Translations under genes and position numbers: made by a program
Shown: in pieces, positions 2,375 through 11,529 of the stretch
Layout: the number at the start of each line of letters is the position of its first letter
How positions within the stretch are numbered: position 1 is the first letter of the stretch
From: a virus
Reading direction: 5' to 3' (one strand)
DNA: 20,328 nucleotides
Virus record (IMG/VR): IMGVR_UViG_3300042468_000045
Coordinates: 1-20,328 of that record
The notes under the pieces: generated by a model
Seen by the model: the letters and a program-made list of their open reading frames with translations, nothing else
What the model was told of the DNA's origin: nothing
The model's database searches: none

Positions 2375-3525
2375 TACGCTGCGCCTCCGACAGCCATCAA
2401 CATCTGCTCAATCCCACGCTGGGGCTTGGCGATGGACTTCACGTTCTTCCGGCCAGCCTGCTTGCGGACCATCTGGCGCATCTGGTCGAGACGGCGAACA
2501 CCGGCATCCGTCGAGCCGTCACCGAGATCAGCCACGTCCTGAGCCGACCAGACGTATTCGCCGTCAGACAGCCACGCCGGGATTTTATCATCCTGACCAG
2601 AGCCGATTCCTCGAACCTGTCCCGGTCCCTGATGACCACCGCCCTGAGCGTAGGCGATCAGATGACGGATCGTGTCGGAGTGCGGTTCGTCGATCTCGCC
2701 GCCCTCGGCTTTTCTGACAGGCTCAGTGCCGACGTTGTAGACCGGCTGATTGAAGAACCGGAACTCGCCGCCCCTCTGCCCGTAGGTCTTCGGGTCGAAC
2801 GTGTAGGCGTTCTGTTCCATGGCGATAGGCTTGTAGGTCAGGCGGTCGTTCATGCCGAGCCCGCCGATGCCGGATGTGGGCGTGGTCGGTGCGCCGGGCT
2901 GAGCCGGAGCCGCACCGCCGCCGCCGCCGGAACCCATTAGTGCGTTCACCAGCAGACCACCGCCGATGCCCGCGACGCCAGTGCCGACGGCGTTCGCCAA
3001 TGCCGGGTTCTTAATGCCCGTCATGGCCCCGATCTTGCCGCCGAGACCGCCCGTCAGCGCACCGCCAAGACCACCGGCAATCGCACCACGCGCGCCACCG
3101 GATGCACCACCCAGCGCGGCACCGGCCAGAGCCGAGCCCGCCATACTGCCGATACCCAGCGCGCCACCAATCGCCGGGCCAATGACCGGGATGAACAGCG
3201 ACGCAATCGGGGCGACCTTCTTGACCGCCTTCCAGACCTTCTTCAGAAAGAACTCTGGCATCCCCGTCTCCGGGTTGATGCTCGGCGGACCCCACATCCG
3301 GGTCAGTTCTTCCAGTTCCTCCGGGTTGATATGGATGGTCTCGCTGTCACCGTAGCGACCGGCCCCACGAATCTTCTGCGCCGCAGCAACCAGCCCGCCC
3401 TCGGCGTACTGGCCCACGTCGTCGTCCTCGTAATACAGAGAAACGGGCGACGTCTTACCGGCCCCGCTCAGGTTGATGGCGGAGGGATAAGGCGCTCCCG
3501 GCTCGTCGTATTGAAACAGCGCCAT
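2374..3525 (-). CDS. Putative internal virion / ejection protein, 383 aa
   Basis: It starts one base after the upstream stop. Three regions are visible. The N-terminus (about 1-90) carries YAEGGLVAAAQKIRGAG and EELTRMWGPPSINPETGMPE. Residues 92-200 form a long hydrophobic Gly/Ala segment (VAPIASLFIPVIGPAIGGAL then AGGLGGALTGGLGG) resembling membrane-inserting parts of ejection proteins. The C-terminus (about 300-380) contains GSGQDDKIPAWLSDGEYVWS, DVADLGDGSTDAGVRRLDQM and KNVKSIAKPQRG, a motif ('G..D.IPA.LS.GEYV....V..LG.GS...G...LD..R..VR') I recognise from the ends of many podophage internal or tail proteins. A role in forming a channel during DNA ejection is inferred from composition and position, just after the nozzle. 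Confidence 0.72.
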   Translation of the reverse strand: MALFQYDEPGAPYPSAINLSGAGKTSPVSLYYEDDDVGQYAEGGLVAAAQKIRGAGRYGDSETIHINPEELEELTRMWGPPSINPETGMPEFFLKKVWKAVKKVAPIASLFIPVIGPAIGGALGIGSMAGSALAGAALGGASGGARGAIAGGLGGALTGGLGGKIGAMTGIKNPALANAVGTGVAGIGGGLLVNALMGSGGGGGAAPAQPGAPTTPTSGIGGLGMNDRLTYKPIAMEQNAYTFDPKTYGQRGGEFRFFNQPVYNVGTEPVRKAEGGEIDEPHSDTIRHLIAYAQGGGHQGPGQVRGIGSGQDDKIPAWLSDGEYVWSAQDVADLGDGSTDAGVRRLDQMRQMVRKQAGRKNVKSIAKPQRGIEQMLMAVGGAA

Positions 3526-3526
3526 G

Positions 3527-3766
3527 CTATGACCCTTGGTTCAGTAGGTCTATAAAGCGAAACGCCCAATCCTTCCAGCCCGAGAACTCATACGGATTAG
3601 GAATACCAAGCGACGCGATACCCTGAAGCGCCAGAAGTCCAGCACCCCAATCCTGCCAATCTTCCTCGCGAAACACTCGGCCTATCGCCCCGTATTCTTC
3701 GAGATCAGGGACCATGTAGTCGGCCCACTCGACGAAACTGTTTATGCCACGAGGATCAACAGCCAT
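3527..3766 (-). CDS. Small acidic protein of unknown function, 79 aa
   Basis: It starts at a TAATG overlap with the nozzle gene. The protein is acidic and aromatic-rich (FVEWADYMVPDLEEYGAIGR, FREEDWQDWGAGLLALQGIA, PYEFSGWKDWAFRFIDLLNQ) and mainly helical, with six Trp in 79 residues. No signal peptide is visible. Similar small proteins sit between nozzle and ejection protein genes in several podophages, from memory, but I know no function. The stop is one base from the next ATG (TAGCATG). Preserved frame, position and coupling support a real gene. Confidence 0.75.
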   Translation of the reverse strand: MAVDPRGINSFVEWADYMVPDLEEYGAIGRVFREEDWQDWGAGLLALQGIASLGIPNPYEFSGWKDWAFRFIDLLNQGS

Positions 3767-5379
3767 TACGACCTCATGCGGCCATCAGCCGGGATCATAT
3801 GCAGAAGCACCTGACCCATCTGATAGTCCCCGTTGACCGTATTGGATTCAAACCGGAAGCGCATCTCCCGGCGCTGTTCCTTGAAGAACACGACCTGCTC
3901 ATCCGGCGACGTAGCGACATCCGGGAACGACACGGGATCACTGATAACATCCGGCGAGCGGGCATTGACCCGGCCCGTGACGCGGACACTCATGTCACCA
4001 GTCTGCACGAAGTCGGGCTCGATAGCCGTGATCGTGAGTGCGCGAGACTTCGGTTCGGATGACGTAAGCAATGAGAAATCCGCCGTCTCGAAATACGACC
4101 GGATCGCGTTCAGGTTCTGGCCGTCGATCTCGTTAACGCCGATCTCATGCCGCCAGATTTTATAGGTCGGGTCACTGACATCGGTGAACAGGAAGTCGTT
4201 GTCTTCCGTGATGAAACTATCGCCGTCCTCCGTGACCAGCAGGTCAGGGTCATCCGACATCGGGTCAATGCCCGCCATGATGGGCGAATGGAAGACCTGT
4301 GCGTAAATCCCCGCCGAGCGACCATTGTTCGGAAGCTCAGTGTCGTACCACGTCCCCTCGCGCACGTTCAGGATAATAGCGTGCGTGCATTCCGTCGCCG
4401 TTCCGCGAGGGTAGCACCACCAGATTTCCCCAAAGCGCGGAACCTTGTAGGCAAACACCTTATTGGAATACTCGGTGTTCAGGCCCTCGAAGAAATAGTT
4501 CAGGTTCATTTCGTTGGGGACTTCTTTCACGACCCCGTTGAACATCAGGAACCTGTCCATCCCGATCCAGTAAAAGATACCGTCGTACTCAATGATGCTA
4601 TTGGCCGACAGGATCGAAGACGAGGCCGTGATGGTGTCGAACGCGAAGACATCTGCGCCGCCTGTGTAGGAAACCCGGATCACGCGATCCAGCGTCCAGG
4701 CAATACCCGCCGGAGCCTGACCGCCGCCACGCAGGGGCAGCATCTTTACGATCTTGGAGGAGTCGATGTTCGCGTCCCCGGCGTCTCCACTGGCGAAGTT
4801 CTCCGGGTCGCCCGCGTCGGACCACTGGACGTAGCCGTTCGATCCGTAGACGAACAGGTAGGGGTGCAACACGCAGACACCGCCCGACGCCGTGACTCCG
4901 GAAATCGGGGTGAGCGCGGTGGTCGCATAGATGTTCCCGATGTAGACCTGTTGAGCCGTGCCCTGAGAGATATCCAGCAGCGTGTTCGTCGCGACGCCGA
5001 TGATCACCGGAGAGCCGCTACCCGTGGAGTCGAACATGGCGTCGAACTGCCACGTATAATTAGCGCCACCCGTAAATCCTACCGGCGTGCGGTCAACCGG
5101 CGCGGACGCATTGCCGAGCGTGTCGATGGTCAGGCGCTCTACGCCAGAGCCGTAGCCCATGTGCGTATAGACGAAGTTGTTCAGCGCCTGCGTGTGGAAC
5201 TGACGAACGATGTCGCCAGCGAAATTGCTGATTTGCCGATAGCCCCACATCTTGCGCGGCAGTCGGCGCTGCCAGCGGACCCACTGTCCGTCCACGCAGG
5301 CGCTGCCTTCAAAGCGCGTACCGTCCCGTTTGATGCCGGGATCGAAGCGCATGGGCGCGATGATTGATCCGTCGGCCAT
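3766..5379 (-). CDS. Nozzle / tail hub protein (P22 gp10-like), 537 aa
   Basis: This is the likely tail nozzle or stabilisation protein, forming the hub through which DNA leaves the capsid. The N-terminus (VDGQWVRWQRRLPRKMWGYR, then ISNFAGDIVRQFHTQALNNF) and repeated beta-propeller-like blades (VCVLHPYLFVYGSNGYVQWS then DAGDPENF; APAGIAWTLDRVIRVSYTGG; SIIEYDGIFYWIGMDRFLMF; NKVFAYKVPRFGEIWWCYPR; IILNVREGTWYDTELPNNGR) match the phage-stabilisation (gp10-like) family. Residues 400-420 contain a duplicated 'LLVTEDGDSF/ITEDNDFLFTD' stretch. The C-terminal domain is another beta sandwich. About 500 residues is normal. It is preceded by the putative adhesin and followed by a 79-aa protein, and start and stop codons overlap at both ends. 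Confidence 0.85.
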   Translation of the reverse strand: MADGSIIAPMRFDPGIKRDGTRFEGSACVDGQWVRWQRRLPRKMWGYRQISNFAGDIVRQFHTQALNNFVYTHMGYGSGVERLTIDTLGNASAPVDRTPVGFTGGANYTWQFDAMFDSTGSGSPVIIGVATNTLLDISQGTAQQVYIGNIYATTALTPISGVTASGGVCVLHPYLFVYGSNGYVQWSDAGDPENFASGDAGDANIDSSKIVKMLPLRGGGQAPAGIAWTLDRVIRVSYTGGADVFAFDTITASSSILSANSIIEYDGIFYWIGMDRFLMFNGVVKEVPNEMNLNYFFEGLNTEYSNKVFAYKVPRFGEIWWCYPRGTATECTHAIILNVREGTWYDTELPNNGRSAGIYAQVFHSPIMAGIDPMSDDPDLLVTEDGDSFITEDNDFLFTDVSDPTYKIWRHEIGVNEIDGQNLNAIRSYFETADFSLLTSSEPKSRALTITAIEPDFVQTGDMSVRVTGRVNARSPDVISDPVSFPDVATSPDEQVVFFKEQRREMRFRFESNTVNGDYQMGQVLLHMIPADGRMRS

Positions 5380-6113: not shown

Positions 6114-7918
6114 TACAGCGCCGATGCGATAGATGCGAGCACGGTAAAGGTCGATGCTCCCGTCTTGATAATCACATAGCTGTAGACCGCGATGCTGTTA
6201 ATCGTGCCTGACGATGGAGCCCCGTTAAGCCATTTCGTCGTCACACCAACAGCCGTACCATCAACTTGCACGGCGCTGTTGTAGTACGCCGTGCCGCCCT
6301 GAGTTACCATAAAGACGACGGTAACAGACTCGCCCGTAGCCATGAGGCTGTTCAGGGTATTCGATCCGTTGCCACGCAGGTTCACGGTCCAGTTCGCAGA
6401 GGCGTTCGTGGTGTAATACAGGACGCTCTGCGTGGTGATATCGTAGTTAATCGTGCCGGTCGCTGCGGTTGCAGAGATCGTCACGACTTCCAGAGCGTTC
6501 GCGAGTTTCGCGGCAAGCGTTGCCGTGCCGCCACTCAGGGTCTGTTTCGCCGTCCACGTCGAAGCCGTATCCGGCTTGGCATAATCCGTGCCTGCGGTCG
6601 CTGCCGAGAATGCCGACGTTCCGTTGCCCTTCAGCACGCCCGTCAGCGTCGCCGCACCAGAGCCGCCCTGAGCAACCGACAGTGGCGTCGTTAGGCCCGA
6701 CAGGGACGTGATGTCGCTGTTCGCCCCCAGCGCCGCAGCAGAGATAGCCGCGCGACCGGCACCAGCGTTGGCCGCCGTGAACACCGCATTGCCGACCGAC
6801 GTGGCCCCGAGGTTCGTGCGCGCGCCTGATGGCGTGACAGCGCCCGTGCCTCCCTGAGCGATAGTGACGGGGAACGAAATCGTCGAGGTGTCGGCGTCGA
6901 TGACGTTCGTGCCGTCGCAGTACACGATAGCCCGAGCGCCGCGCGACAGAGCAACGCCCGAGCCAGCCGATGTCTTCACCGTGATCGTGTACGGATCGGA
7001 CGCGAGATCAGTGTCGTTGCCCGGCCAGTATTGCTGCACCGTATTCGGGACCACGACTTCCATGTTCCCGGTCAGCGTGCCCCCGAAGCTGTAGGCGATG
7101 CGGTTCAGTTCCGCGCCGGACAGGACATACGGAGACGTCTCACTGGTCAGGTCGATGGAGACGTAATCGAACGCGAACTCCGCCGCTTGACCAAAGCCGA
7201 CCGTGAAGAAATTCGTGCCGTCGCAAACGATAATGCCGCTGTCGCCTGGATTGAACAGCAGAGTCGCCGCGCCATTGATCTCCTGGCCACCGACCGTCGT
7301 CTCAACCGTGATCGCGCCCGTGCCGCCATTGCGAAGGTGGAAGAACCAGTCGTTACCCAGCGTCGCCGCCGACGGCAGGCTGATCGTGCCAGCGCCACTA
7401 TCCCACAGGAACGCAGCCGCGCGATCCGGGGCCTGCGGCGTGTAATCCGTGGAGATCGTCGTGACCTCCATGGACTGGTTCAGCGTTGCCCCGATAGCCT
7501 TGATGCCCGCGCCAACCAGAGACCCAGCCGTGGCGGACGACGTGCCCGCGCCATAGGCTACGGACCCCCACGTTCCGTTCGTGGTAGCGTTCGTCTTGAG
7601 GTAGACCTGCCACGCCTCGCCGGGGTCAACCGACACAATGGTATTGCCGCCCGCGTCCGTGACCGTGAAGGCAAACGAGCCGACGTTGAAGATCAGCGTC
7701 GCTTCGCCCGGAGACGCCTGATTCGCGGGCGGCATCCGCAGGTCCCAGCCAGCCTGATTCGGCGTGACATCCATGATGTTCGCGACGATGTTGCTATCGG
7801 TCGCGACCTCAACCGGCCACGTCAGCGCCAAATCAGACGTCAGCGCAAACGCCCGGTAGGACGCCTGCGCTGGGAAGATGGTCCCGCCCCCGAACGTAGA
7901 TGTAAATGCTGCGGGCAT
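6113..7918 (-). CDS. Tail fibre protein, 601 aa
   Basis: It starts at a TAATG overlap. The N-terminal third (residues 1-140) contains LTWPVEVATDSNIVANIMDV and GWDLRMPPANQASPGEATLI, a beta domain common at the base of podophage fibres ('SPGE...I.N.G...FTV....G..I..V..G'). The middle repeats this theme with FLWDSGAGTISLPSA and LLFNPGDSGIIVCDGTN. Two copies of the fibre-shaft motif follow: IAQGGTGAVTPSGARTNLGA and SVAQGGSGAATLTGVLKGNG. The C-terminal region is beta-rich (LYYTTNASANWTVNLRGNGS). No signal peptide or enzyme motif is visible. The architecture fits a trimeric fibre attached near the nozzle. Its neighbours, a glycine-rich adhesin-like protein and the nozzle, support this. Confidence 0.82.
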   Translation of the reverse strand: MPAAFTSTFGGGTIFPAQASYRAFALTSDLALTWPVEVATDSNIVANIMDVTPNQAGWDLRMPPANQASPGEATLIFNVGSFAFTVTDAGGNTIVSVDPGEAWQVYLKTNATTNGTWGSVAYGAGTSSATAGSLVGAGIKAIGATLNQSMEVTTISTDYTPQAPDRAAAFLWDSGAGTISLPSAATLGNDWFFHLRNGGTGAITVETTVGGQEINGAATLLFNPGDSGIIVCDGTNFFTVGFGQAAEFAFDYVSIDLTSETSPYVLSGAELNRIAYSFGGTLTGNMEVVVPNTVQQYWPGNDTDLASDPYTITVKTSAGSGVALSRGARAIVYCDGTNVIDADTSTISFPVTIAQGGTGAVTPSGARTNLGATSVGNAVFTAANAGAGRAAISAAALGANSDITSLSGLTTPLSVAQGGSGAATLTGVLKGNGTSAFSAATAGTDYAKPDTASTWTAKQTLSGGTATLAAKLANALEVVTISATAATGTINYDITTQSVLYYTTNASANWTVNLRGNGSNTLNSLMATGESVTVVFMVTQGGTAYYNSAVQVDGTAVGVTTKWLNGAPSSGTINSIAVYSYVIIKTGASTFTVLASIASAL

Positions 7919-8565
7919 TAGTCTTCTCGCCTAACGATGGAGCGGTCGGAAATCATGCGGATGTCTTCGCCGTTCAGGACCGAGATGGCGCGGTTCAGGA
8001 AACCTTCCCACGTCTTGATGCGGGCGTCGTCCTTCAGGAACGGCGTGGCCTCCAGCAGGGACGCATACAGCAGAGCGTCGGGCGCTTTCTCGGTGTACCA
8101 GTTCGTCTGCGTGGTTTCATCCAGCAGCGGCGGAAGTTCGTAGCACAGAACCTCATACGGGTATGCATCATCCGGCGTCGGGGCCACGATCCAGTTATCG
8201 AAGTCGTAGTCCGCATAGAAGCGCGGCACGCCCTCATTGGTCTGATCCGGCCAGAACATGCGGATGTACTCATAGGCGCGCGGGTAAATCTCAGACAGCG
8301 TATCGTTCGATGCGCCGGTCCCGACGCGCATGGATACCGTTTCGCGCCAGCGGTCTGGCTTGGCGATGCGAGGTTCACCCTGAACGAAGGTCGAGGCCAG
8401 CACCGTGACGGTGCCCTGAATCTTCAGTTCTCGCGCAAGCCTGCGCTCAGCCAGATTGACCAGGGTCGGCAGTTGATCATAGACCGTAGGGTCAGACAGA
8501 TTGCCGCGCTCAAGATATCTCCTGAGATCGCTAAGCAGTCCCGTGTATGTCATCGCCGTAGGCAT
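7918..8565 (-). CDS. Second adaptor-like tail protein (SU10-adaptor type), 215 aa
   Basis: Two in-frame ATGs are possible: 8565 (MPTAM) and 8553 (MTYTG). The second aligns better with the common 'MTYT.L...' opening of this family, but the first is the longer frame. The protein has a helical N-terminus (LVNLAERRLARELKIQGTVT), a middle beta part with GVPRFYADYDFDNWIVAPTP and YPYEVLCYELPPLL, and a C-terminal helix (LLYASLLEATPFL, ARIKTWEGFLNRAI). The pattern 'G.P.FYA....N.I..AP.P...Y..E..Y...PP.L......N......P..LLYA.L.EA..FL' is typical of SU10-adaptor-like podophage proteins. It precedes fibre and nozzle genes and overlaps the next start (TAATG), so a head-tail adaptor at the nozzle is likely. 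Confidence 0.78.
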   Translation of the reverse strand: MPTAMTYTGLLSDLRRYLERGNLSDPTVYDQLPTLVNLAERRLARELKIQGTVTVLASTFVQGEPRIAKPDRWRETVSMRVGTGASNDTLSEIYPRAYEYIRMFWPDQTNEGVPRFYADYDFDNWIVAPTPDDAYPYEVLCYELPPLLDETTQTNWYTEKAPDALLYASLLEATPFLKDDARIKTWEGFLNRAISVLNGEDIRMISDRSIVRRED

Positions 8566-9073: not shown

Positions 9074-9208
9074 TCAGCGCGACTTGCCCAACAGTTTCGA
9101 CACGAAAGCCTTATACGCGACGATCAGAACGAACGCGACAACCTTCACCGCGACCAGCAAGCCGACCAGGAACCCGATGATCAGGACCAGCCATTCTGAA
9201 CCGTACAT
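9074..9208 (-). CDS. 44-aa membrane protein in the lysis block
   Basis: This short gene has an ATG at 9208 with GGAG seven bases upstream, at 9219-9216. Its TGA (9076-9074) is one base from the i-spanin ATG. The product begins MYGSEWLVLIIGFLVGLLVA, continues through VKVVAFVLIVAYKAFV, and ends SKLLGKSR. That is a hydrophobic helix of about 28 residues, perhaps two short helices separated by one Lys, with a basic tail. It is preserved between the phosphoesterase and spanin genes with correct spacing and typical codon use. A small holin, pinholin or antiholin is the most natural reading, but size and hydrophobicity alone cannot prove it. Confidence 0.72.
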   Translation of the reverse strand: MYGSEWLVLIIGFLVGLLVAVKVVAFVLIVAYKAFVSKLLGKSR

Positions 9209-9246
9209 CTCCGGGCTCCGAGAAGGTCATAGGTTATGCGCGATGT

Positions 9247-10455
9247 TCATGAGGCCGTCTTGCCGACCGACCACTTGCCACGCCGCCATGCCAGATATTC
9301 GGTGGCGTCTTCCAAAGAAAAGAACGGCTTGATGTAGCGAACCGGGTCGCCGATGTGGTCAGGATCAATGACCGCCGCCAGCGAGCGAGCCCAATTGCCG
9401 TCTTGGAAGCCCTTCTCCTTGGCGTAGTGATCCATGTCTTTGTAAGCGCCTACCCGGAAACCGTGGCAGAGCCGCTTCGGGTCATTGTGCCAGATCGGGA
9501 TGTACCCGGTTGTGTGCCGGTGTCCGCAAGCCAAGATGTGGTCGCGGTGGCCGAACAGGGTTTCTCGCACCAGAGCGTGGGCTGGGTTGAACTGCGAGCC
9601 GCCGGGAAAGTCGTGGCGGACGTGCAGCCGGAACGCAGCCCCGCTGGGCAGGTTCAGTTCAAGCCGCGCTCCGCTTTCCTCCAGACCGCCGATTTGACCA
9701 AACAGGCGGTGAATGTAATCCGAGACATCGCCCTTCTCGGTGTGCCAGCTATCGTGATTTCCCTTGATCCGCAGGAGCCACGGAAGCGAGCCCATCAGCC
9801 ACTCGATCAGCTTCAGCGACTGCTTGGCGGTAATCTCCTGATGGGCGTATAACTTCGCAAGGCGACCGACCCAGTTGTTGCTGTCGTCGCCCACATCCAC
9901 AGCTAGGACACCCTCGGTGTCGCGGCACAGGCGGACGTCGCGGTCGAGATCGCCCCAAGCGCAGCCGGGGTCATCGACGTGCGGATCGCCGAAGAAGGCA
10001 AGCATGATTGGGCCGTCGATATTGACCTGCACCTGACGCAGTTTGGCCGCATCGTGGTGGGCCTTCCGCTTTGCATGACGCTCTGTCAGCGCCGCGATCA
10101 GTTCCTCGGCGGTCTGCTCGCCGTCGTGCGGAAGGTCGTCAAATGTAAAGTCTGGCTTGACATATTCGTCCAGCTTCAAACCGTAGCGATTGACCGCGAC
10201 GTTAAGCCGGTGCGTCGTGGTGTTGAGATCGAGGCACATCCGGCGGGCAGTTTCAGCGCGCGCTGAAAAGTTCCTCCGCCCACCCCTGTTGACTCCGGTG
10301 CCGTAACCTTCGGCGACGCACTCGTTATAGACCGCGACCGTGCGCTCAGCTTCTTCGATGGTTAATTGCTTTGCAGCCACTACAGCACGTAGGGGATGCG
10401 CGAACCCGTAGGCGTCGCTAGGAATACAGTCATAGCCGCTTTTCCCTCTGCTCAA
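9247..10455 (-). CDS. Calcineurin-like metallophosphoesterase, about 402 aa
   Basis: The domain from about residue 148 has the full metallophosphoesterase set: GDPHVDD (156-162), GDDSNNW (189-195), GNHDSW (232-237), a conserved His region (LHVRHDFPGG) and GHRHTTG (311-317). This predicts a two-metal hydrolase acting on a phosphodiester or phosphomonoester; the substrate is unknown. The first 145 residues are different: helical and basic, with an HTH-like stretch (LTIEEAERTVAVYNECVAEG, then NFSARAETARRM), suggesting nucleic-acid binding. The start is uncertain: TTG at 10455 gives the longest frame and overlaps the endolysin end by 26 bases, with no clear ribosome site, and no in-frame ATG is close. 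It stands between the endolysin and the spanins, an odd place for a nuclease-like enzyme. Confidence 0.82.
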   Translation of the reverse strand: MSRGKSGYDCIPSDAYGFAHPLRAVVAAKQLTIEEAERTVAVYNECVAEGYGTGVNRGGRRNFSARAETARRMCLDLNTTTHRLNVAVNRYGLKLDEYVKPDFTFDDLPHDGEQTAEELIAALTERHAKRKAHHDAAKLRQVQVNIDGPIMLAFFGDPHVDDPGCAWGDLDRDVRLCRDTEGVLAVDVGDDSNNWVGRLAKLYAHQEITAKQSLKLIEWLMGSLPWLLRIKGNHDSWHTEKGDVSDYIHRLFGQIGGLEESGARLELNLPSGAAFRLHVRHDFPGGSQFNPAHALVRETLFGHRDHILACGHRHTTGYIPIWHNDPKRLCHGFRVGAYKDMDHYAKEKGFQDGNWARSLAAVIDPDHIGDPVRYIKPFFSLEDATEYLAWRRGKWSVGKTAS

Positions 10456-11161
10456 GCCATTTGAAGATCATGACGGCGATGCCGCCAGCTACGATCAGCC
10501 CCGCCACAATGGCCGCTAGGGTCTGAAGGTGTTCGTGATACTGCATCTGCGGCGCAACCAACGCCTGAACCTGCTGTGCCCCCGCAACCACGCCAGATGC
10601 CGCGACGCCCGCGCCAGTCCACATCGTCTTAGAGACAGTCAATGGCTTCTCGATGACAGGTGTTGGCGGAGTCATGCCGATCATACGCAGCGTCGTGGAC
10701 GGCGGAACCTCGGGCTCGTCATCAACCTGCTCCCACAGCGCGGCTTCAGCGGCGCGACGGCGAACAAGGCCCGGAAGGCGCTTGCCTCCAGCATTAACGA
10801 AGCGCATCAGTTGCGCGGGCACGGCGTCGAACTGACGCGCATTGATCCGCTTCCAGATCGCCCACTTCGCTCCCGCGCCCAGATTGAACACGAACGAAAG
10901 GAGCGCCGCGTATTGGCTATCCGAGAGGTCTGCCAGTACGTCGGCCTTGACCACGCCCGATAGCCGTTTGGCGGCGTGCGCGATGTCAGCCCGCAGCCAC
11001 GCCTCCGCACGGGCGCGCGTGTATTTCATCCCGACCTTGACATCAGGCCCGGTGTGCCCCCATCCGGCAGTCGCGATGCCAGCCGGGCAGTTATAGCCCG
11101 TGAGTTTAAGGCCCTCGAACTCTTTGATGATTTCGAAGGCTTGCTGTGGTGTGGGCCTCAT
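10430..11161 (-). CDS. GH24 (T4-type) endolysin with hydrophobic C-terminus, 243 aa
   Basis: This is a lysozyme/muramidase that cuts the glycan strands of peptidoglycan for lysis. Residues 15-37 carry the GH24 catalytic arrangement E16-x8-C25-x5-T31 (EGLKLTGYNCPAGIATAGWG then HT). Cys replaces the usual Asp, a variant known in this family. The DSQYAALLSFVFNLG segment and the C-terminal catalytic-domain motif GLVRRRAAEAALW (near residue 140) complete the domain. Unusually, about 90 residues follow: a Pro/Thr-rich linker, then two hydrophobic stretches (about 180-202 and 214-235) and a charged end, QREKRL. So the enzyme may be membrane-tethered at its C-terminus. Most free GH24 endolysins are about 150-165 residues. 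The lysozyme call is strong; the role of the tail is inferred. Confidence 0.9.
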   Translation of the reverse strand: MRPTPQQAFEIIKEFEGLKLTGYNCPAGIATAGWGHTGPDVKVGMKYTRARAEAWLRADIAHAAKRLSGVVKADVLADLSDSQYAALLSFVFNLGAGAKWAIWKRINARQFDAVPAQLMRFVNAGGKRLPGLVRRRAAEAALWEQVDDEPEVPPSTTLRMIGMTPPTPVIEKPLTVSKTMWTGAGVAASGVVAGAQQVQALVAPQMQYHEHLQTLAAIVAGLIVAGGIAVMIFKWLEQREKRL

Positions 11162-11529
11162 GGCGACGGCGGAGCCCCCTTAAAGAAATGCGCCACCTTG
11201 TCGCCCACCAGCCACCACAGGAACGCGGCGGCGACACTGAAGGCCCCCGCGATGGTGGACGTCACCCAGATCACGCGGGCCTTGAACATCTCCCACGCGA
11301 AAACCTTATCCTTGATGGCGGCTATATCCTCGCGCATTTCATTCAGTGCGTGCAAGACCGCCTCCGACATCCTGGCGTTGTGATCGACTTGCGCCTGAAT
11401 AACCTGCAACCTGTCGTCGTGTCCACTGGCGCGAACCTCAAGGTTCTCGATCTGCTGAGACGTCGCGCCAAGCTCGACGTACACCTTCTTGATGTCGTCC
11501 TTGAGTTCGGCGTGGGTCGGTTGGGTCAC
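11158..11529 (-). CDS. Coiled-coil single-TM protein, putative holin-like, 123 aa
   Basis: I choose the GTG at 11529, which overlaps the preceding TGA (GTGA), rather than a start inside the previous gene, because the upstream residues have a shadow-frame composition. Residues 6-80 form a charged coiled coil (ELKDDIKKVYVELGATSQQI, then EMREDIAAIKDKVFAWEMFK). One membrane helix follows (about residues 86-109, ending AAAFLWWLVG) and a short basic tail with HFFKGAPPSP. This layout resembles XhlA/hemolysin-type accessory holins. Its stop overlaps the endolysin start (ATGA), placing it at the head of the lysis block. A role in membrane permeabilisation is probable, but holins are too varied to be certain. 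Confidence 0.65.
   Translation of the reverse strand: MTQPTHAELKDDIKKVYVELGATSQQIENLEVRASGHDDRLQVIQAQVDHNARMSEAVLHALNEMREDIAAIKDKVFAWEMFKARVIWVTSTIAGAFSVAAAFLWWLVGDKVAHFFKGAPPSP

Follow-up and report, generated by a model that had tools for sequence, protein, structure and literature searches.

The pinholin of phage 21, S21, has two transmembrane (TM) segments. Like the 44-residue protein described here, it is a small holin-type membrane protein of a lysis cassette. The two systems differ in that S21 combines its two TM segments with an N-terminal SAR endolysin, whereas the present protein is a single helix encoded near a C-terminally anchored endolysin. Its gene lies in a 20,328-base virus record, the whole of which was analysed and is called the window below.

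Other small lysis proteins provide further points of comparison. The excerpted text of a preprint (PMC12642591) presents phage 21 as a pinholin–SAR endolysin system and describes class III holins of the T4 T type as having one TM segment plus a periplasmic globular domain. According to the same excerpt, phage N4 encodes in its lysis cassette a nonessential TM lysis regulator, gp62, which differs in working with the pinholin gp63 and a SAR endolysin. In Salmonella phage BSPM4, ORF52 is a 64-residue protein with one TM segment that is toxic alone, is pulled down with the holin and delays lysis (excerpt of PMC11657625). Like the 44-residue protein, it is small, has a single TM segment and comes from a phage with a C-terminal TM segment in its endolysin; unlike it, ORF52 has its TM segment at the N-terminus, is 64 residues long and has a tested function. 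Its gene is also numbered apart from the lysis genes of that phage (orf52 versus orf37, 38 and 40, in the same excerpt). Both ORF52 and gp62 are likened to the present protein by description and not by sequence, which makes the resemblance one of kind and not one of descent.

Phages Enc34 and BSPM4 are known to encode endolysins with a C-terminal TM segment, which there have another catalytic domain (PHA02564 in Enc34). The BSPM4 enzyme, M4Lys, can lyse cells without a holin when overproduced (excerpts of PMC8943055 and PMC7143992).

Organization of the Lysis Block

On the minus strand of the window, a gene for a coiled-coil protein with a TM segment is followed by a GH24 endolysin gene, a metallophosphoesterase-like gene (MPE), the 44-residue ORF, the genes for the i-spanin and o-spanin, and an SU10-adaptor-like gene (Table 1).

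Table 1. Features of the lysis block, with positions in the window.
Feature	Positions	Strand	Basis or remark
Coiled-coil protein with C-terminal TM segment	11158..11529	-	ORF reaches to 11643
GH24 endolysin	10430..11161	-	Phage_lysozyme PF00959, E 2e-35; C-terminal TM segment
Metallophosphoesterase-like gene (MPE)	9247..10380	-	phrog_7339, E 3e-33
GGAG Shine-Dalgarno sequence	9216..9219	-	7 nt ahead of small-gene ATG
44-aa single-TM membrane protein gene	9074..9208	-	Homologs, kept hydrophobicity, predicted single helix
i-spanin (Rz-like), 129 aa	8683..9072	-	phrog_1152 / phrog_2536, Rz-like spanin, E 2e-4 and 2e-3
o-spanin (Rz1-like), 82 aa	8580..8828	-	phrog_456, Rz-like spanin, E 3e-5; phrog_2425, unknown function
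SU10-adaptor-like gene	7918-8565	-	After o-spanin

The coiled-coil/TM protein, to which the earlier note had drawn attention, does exist. Comparison with relatives places its probable start at the GTG at 11529, which overlaps the TGA of the preceding gene. A profile built from three relatives (L028, L029 and L128; L numbers denote records and loci of relatives) was used in its comparison, and in L028, L029, L032, L125, L127 and L128 a homolog precedes the endolysin. It is the other holin-type candidate of the block. The MPE ORF runs to 10455, with the GTG at 10380, aligned with the start in L003, as the likelier start. The o-spanin gene overlaps the i-spanin gene in another frame, and an LSAC lipobox can be recognized in it by eye.

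The only strong hydropathy peak of the endolysin covers residues 217-233 of 243. Its N-terminus, MRPTPQQAFEIIKEFEGLK, is hydrophilic, with no N-terminal TM or SAR segment. In the group to which the window belongs, endolysins with a C-terminal TM segment are of either the GH24 or the M15 catalytic type. These unrelated types occupy the same place in the window (10430-11161, minus strand), L032 (4252-4890), L127, L128 and L125. The C-terminal part of the GH24 endolysins, searched with a profile from L028, L029, L008, L019 and L043, also occurs in L044-L047 and L049. Among NCBIfam models, the GH24 part resembles those for SpmX and for BgtA, the Bartonella GTA endolysin, with both matches below the cut-off; a search for literature connecting SpmX with phage lysozyme and Bartonella returned no paper.

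The Small Gene and Its Product

Read from its ATG on the minus strand (9208 to 9074), the small gene encodes the 44 residues MYGSEWLVLIIGFLVGLLVAVKVVAFVLIVAYKAFVSKLLGKSR. The earlier note had described a well-spaced GGAG and ATG, a long hydrophobic stretch split by a single Lys and followed by a basic tail, and an end one base before the i-spanin gene. Each of these is borne out by the letters: the Lys is residue 22, the stop and the next start read TGA-C-ATG, and the downstream gene matches Rz-like spanin PHROGs.

The GGAG is also kept in L032 and L028. Its duplex with the anti-Shine-Dalgarno sequence has an energy of -5.8 kcal/mol, which is attained at 12.3% of 243 other ATGs on the minus strand of the window; the signal is thus good and moderately above background, not exceptional. 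A dual start, suggested by ATGATG in L028 and L032, was dropped because the window reads GAGATG there. The GC content at codon positions 1, 2 and 3 is 0.57, 0.30 and 0.82, and the third position is likewise the maximum in four of the five neighbouring genes, the i-spanin gene being the exception.

AlphaFold predicts one continuous helix from residue 3 to 43, with a mean pLDDT of 87. Topology can be predicted from the positive-inside rule. Because the N-terminus is near neutral and four basic residues lie near the C-terminus, the product is predicted to be a single-pass inner-membrane protein with its N-terminus outside and its C-terminus inside.

The same features bear on the kind of protein it may be. 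The proposal that it is a pinholin in the phage 21 sense fails on two counts, since the protein has one predicted continuous helix in its 44 residues instead of two TM segments, and the endolysin of the block has no N-terminal SAR segment. It is also unlike class III holins of the T4 T type, having no domain besides the helix. Antiholins and lysis regulators include small membrane proteins encoded in lysis cassettes. With its place in the cassette and its predicted membrane location, the protein fits the antiholin reading.

Evidence for a Gene

Homologs were sought by three routes: tblastn and profile searches of loci retrieved through neighbouring genes, a scan of viral contigs queried by an alignment of the small protein itself, and a further scan that used the Rz of two relatives as query. 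Ten IMG/VR contigs contain the intact frame, namely the window and nine others (L002, L032, L028, L003, L004, L005, L025, L026 and L127), which together hold six distinct protein sequences. Partial copies at contig ends occur in L029, which has the N-terminal part only, and in L126, which has only the C-terminal part (the 3' end of the gene). The conserved small ORF upstream of Rz for which the earlier note had proposed to look is present in relatives.

Identity to the window protein falls as low as 35%. Across all six sequences the peak hydropathy (KD19) stays between 2.90 and 2.97, and M1, E5, G12, L14, K22, V24, A25 and A31 are invariant. Neutral simulation gives a measure of this conservation. 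Over the divergence between the window and L003, an open frame with a KD19 of at least 2.9 is left in 0.25% of 20,000 runs, and over that between the window and L025 in 0.035% of 20,000 runs. For two close pairs the hydrophobic frame survives 35% and 45% of runs, so the simulation is uninformative there.

In two independent close pairs, synonymous and nonsynonymous changes stand at 6.5 to 3.5, compared with an expected 27% synonymous (binomial 0.006-0.03, from ten changes only). The synonymous excess is absent from the deep pairs, whose dN/dS values (0.43/0.67, 0.70/0.79 and 0.71/0.72) show no strong constraint on individual residues.

One alternative is that the frame is not a gene but a stretch of intergenic sequence that is open and hydrophobic by chance. 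It is short, and one antisense frame is likewise free of stops in all six sequences, so that openness by itself is weak evidence. Against chance stand the homologs in other contigs, which keep both hydrophobicity and residues, and the strong hydrophobicity of the frame. Its KD19 of 2.94 is the highest among the 208 ORFs of at least 30 residues in the window, and when the whole window was shuffled 60 times with dinucleotides preserved, no equally hydrophobic ATG ORF of 40-80 residues arose. A chance frame is very improbable, and the 44-codon frame is very probably a real gene. The view that the lysis block contains an overlooked small membrane protein thus finds support in its conservation, its kept hydrophobicity and its linkage to Rz.

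Relation to Known Families

The window, L003 and L025 forms of the small protein have no significant family match in Pfam, NCBIfam, PHROG or PDB. The best E-values are 0.025 for PHROG, 0.025 for NCBIfam (far below the cut-off) and 0.094 for Pfam (below the cut-off), and the PDB search returned nothing at E 1. Annotated phage records searched with the 44-residue protein gave no match at E 10. The L025 homolog gave three Vibrio phage matches at E 6, which were treated as chance. Genome contigs scanned with the small protein and with the Rz of the L003/L025 type yielded no confirmed relatives; therefore, no host is named.

No description of the family was found in titles and abstracts on single-TM holins and antiholins, small lysis membrane proteins and phage microproteins, and a search for literature on genes upstream of spanins found none. 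Judged by sequence, the small protein is a new family, while its kind, the small membrane protein of a lysis cassette, is already known.

The Slot before Rz

In all ten contigs, the small gene lies directly ahead of an Rz-like gene. The junction reads TGACATG, with a gap of one base, in the window, L002, L032, L028, L025, L026 and L127, and TGATG, with an overlap of one base, in L003-L005. The Rz genes that follow fall into two groups, the window type and the L003/L025/L127 type, between which there is no tblastn match. A scan of the window, L028, L032, L003-L005, L025 and L127 located a lipobox frame (Rz1) after or overlapping Rz in the window, L028, L032, L003, L004 and L025; none was seen in L127, and in L005 it is lost. 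The o-spanin frame of L005 (6612-6791) is shortened, with its lipobox gone, compared with L003 and L004, which may reflect sequencing error or decay.

This fixed position is what one would expect if the small protein worked with the spanins, either in the assembly of Rz or simply as a leader whose translation lets ribosomes restart on Rz. The weak Shine-Dalgarno sequence of Rz in the window and L032 (-2.4 kcal/mol) agrees with such a role. However, the corresponding signals in L028, L003 and L025 are stronger (-7.6, -7.2 and -10.7 kcal/mol), two different groups of Rz follow the small gene, and L128 is among the records in which Rz occurs without it. A translational leader alone would, moreover, have no need of conserved hydrophobicity. 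Taken together, a partnership with the spanins is improbable.

The gene ahead of the small gene is more variable. It is the MPE in the window, L002 and L003-L005, a 24-residue TM ORF in L028 and L032, and an overlapping GH24 endolysin in L025. In L127, a homolog of the 24-residue ORF lies within a 68-codon frame that overlaps the small gene. The MPE is not at this position in L028, L032, L025 or L127.

Other relatives fill the slot differently. In Caulobacter phage GB2A (gp071c), L038 and L039-L041, the same position directly before Rz holds proteins of 76-86 residues with two hydrophobic peaks, unlike the small protein. Of the proteins of L041, GB2A and L038, that of L041 matches a holin PHROG (E 2e-5), and the other two gave no significant match. 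The slot is empty in L128 and L043, where Rz overlaps the endolysin stop, and the TM endolysin of L008 and that of L019 are each immediately followed by an Rz-like gene, recognized by eye. Between endolysin and Rz there is thus a hotspot, which can hold the small gene, the 24-residue TM ORF together with the small gene, a holin-like protein with two TM segments, an unrelated gene, or nothing.

Some further features of these cassettes were observed. In L125 a 353-residue gene of unknown function (2943-4004) takes the place of the micro-ORFs between endolysin and Rz. In the window and L003 the MPE separates the endolysin gene from the small gene, whereas L028, L032 and L025 lack it there and have another metallophosphoesterase-like gene, by eye, upstream of the endolysin; this resembles the mobility of cargo inside lysis cassettes. 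A holin-like frame with two TM segments is interrupted in L005 (4119-4529) compared with L003 and L004, by sequencing error or decay.

A hotspot could also have received a membrane peptide unrelated to lysis, acting for instance in superinfection exclusion, as a type I toxin-like peptide or as moron cargo. The MPE and the 353-residue gene found in the same slot are compatible with this, as is the patchy presence of the small gene. On the other hand, its linkage to Rz is fixed down to 35% identity, through tight, operon-like junctions, which makes an unrelated cargo peptide improbable.

The short TM ORF was observed in L028 (5736-5810), L032 (4894-4968), L127 (3777-3983), L009 (6289-6429), L013 and L022. 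It has 24 residues in L028 and L032 and 46 in L009 and L022, in addition to the 68-codon frame of L127. Its opening, MWxLxHxxEGxxxGVxxxWxCWR (MWALAHxxEGxxxGVxxAWxCWR in the 24-residue form), is conserved across divergent phages. In L009, L013 and L022 a TM ORF of 34-38 residues overlaps it in another frame.

One bolder reading joins the 24- and 44-residue one-helix ORFs into a removable module of two microproteins, placed after the endolysin gene and ahead of those for the spanins. The module would regulate C-terminal-TM endolysins of two unrelated catalytic folds, GH24 and M15, as a holin/antiholin pair in which each partner is a single helix. We regard this as improbable.

An Apparently Optional Gene

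Of 14 records searched in full, 3 gave a match to the small protein (L003, L127 and L028). There was no match in L125, L128, L043, L038, L039, L041, L008, L019, L009 or GB2A, and in L126, the eleventh record without a match, the copy is cut by the contig end. Many of the records are fragments, and absence applies to the cassette seen, not to the whole virus. Among 22 loci retrieved by way of the MPE gene, several of them incomplete, 4 have a match to the protein (L002-L005). The family thus seems narrow, since most records and MPE loci searched have no match. The earlier note had named absence or disruption of the frame in relatives as evidence against it; this holds in part, as no homolog was found in the records of L128, L125, L043, L008 and L019, but wherever the homologous region occurs, in ten contigs, the frame is open.

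L127 and L128 have an M15-TM endolysin and a type of Rz in common, and L128 is without the small gene. In L003, the small gene stands beside a soluble M15 endolysin and an ORF with two TM segments that is holin-like by size and hydropathy only, with no family match. The small gene looks optional because some relatives with C-terminal-TM endolysins lack it and L003 keeps it beside the two-TM ORF. The former makes it unlikely to be an essential trigger, and the latter argues that it is not simply a holin replacement. A strict pairing with TM endolysins was rejected, as the L003 endolysin is soluble and L128, L043, L008 and L019 have TM endolysins and no small gene; a role as sole holin was rejected on the same four records and on the co-occurrence in L003. 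Judged by this pattern of presence and absence, the gene seems to be an optional addition to the lysis cassette and not an essential holin. Together with its conservation, this suggests a selected, optional member of the lysis gene block.

Possible Roles in Lysis

The link of the small gene to lysis is by position only, and no holin partner was identified. The reading we prefer, at roughly even confidence, is that it encodes a small, optional membrane protein that tunes lysis, as an antiholin or an accessory holin, by way of a lysis-triggering membrane protein. It would then act in the manner of BSPM4 ORF52 or N4 gp62, the closest precedents with a tested function. The protein would insert in the inner membrane in the predicted orientation, where the invariant Lys22 within the hydrophobic run and the invariant Glu5 could favour helix–helix contacts. 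It may then form hetero-oligomers with the TM segment of the endolysin, with the coiled-coil/TM protein, or with both. Such complexes would shift the timing of lysis, the protein acting as antiholin or auxiliary holin, and it may itself weakly depolarise the membrane.

Alternatively, it may be a small holin or pinholin proper, which would oligomerise, depolarise the membrane and thereby trigger the membrane-anchored endolysin. The window, L028 and L032 all have C-terminally anchored endolysins, and by eye no separate holin with two TM segments was seen among their hydrophobic lysis-block ORFs. Two-TM proteins occupy the same slot in relatives, and the highly hydrophobic helix contains a conserved Lys. 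The Enc34 authors suggest, as a speculation, that a holin with a C-terminal-TM endolysin as its partner may function in the manner of a pinholin (excerpt of PMC8943055). Yet the protein has one helix, not two, L128, L043, L008 and L019 pass from a C-terminal-TM endolysin to an Rz-like gene with no match to it, and its presence beside a two-TM holin-like ORF in L003 makes it seem neither necessary nor unique. A holin proper is therefore rather unlikely.

Significance

Holins and antiholins are the least recognizable of lysis genes, and the smallest of them are easily missed by gene callers. A conserved but removable one-helix gene beside C-terminally anchored endolysins provides natural pairs with and without it, such as L127 and L128, for studying how these endolysins are released.
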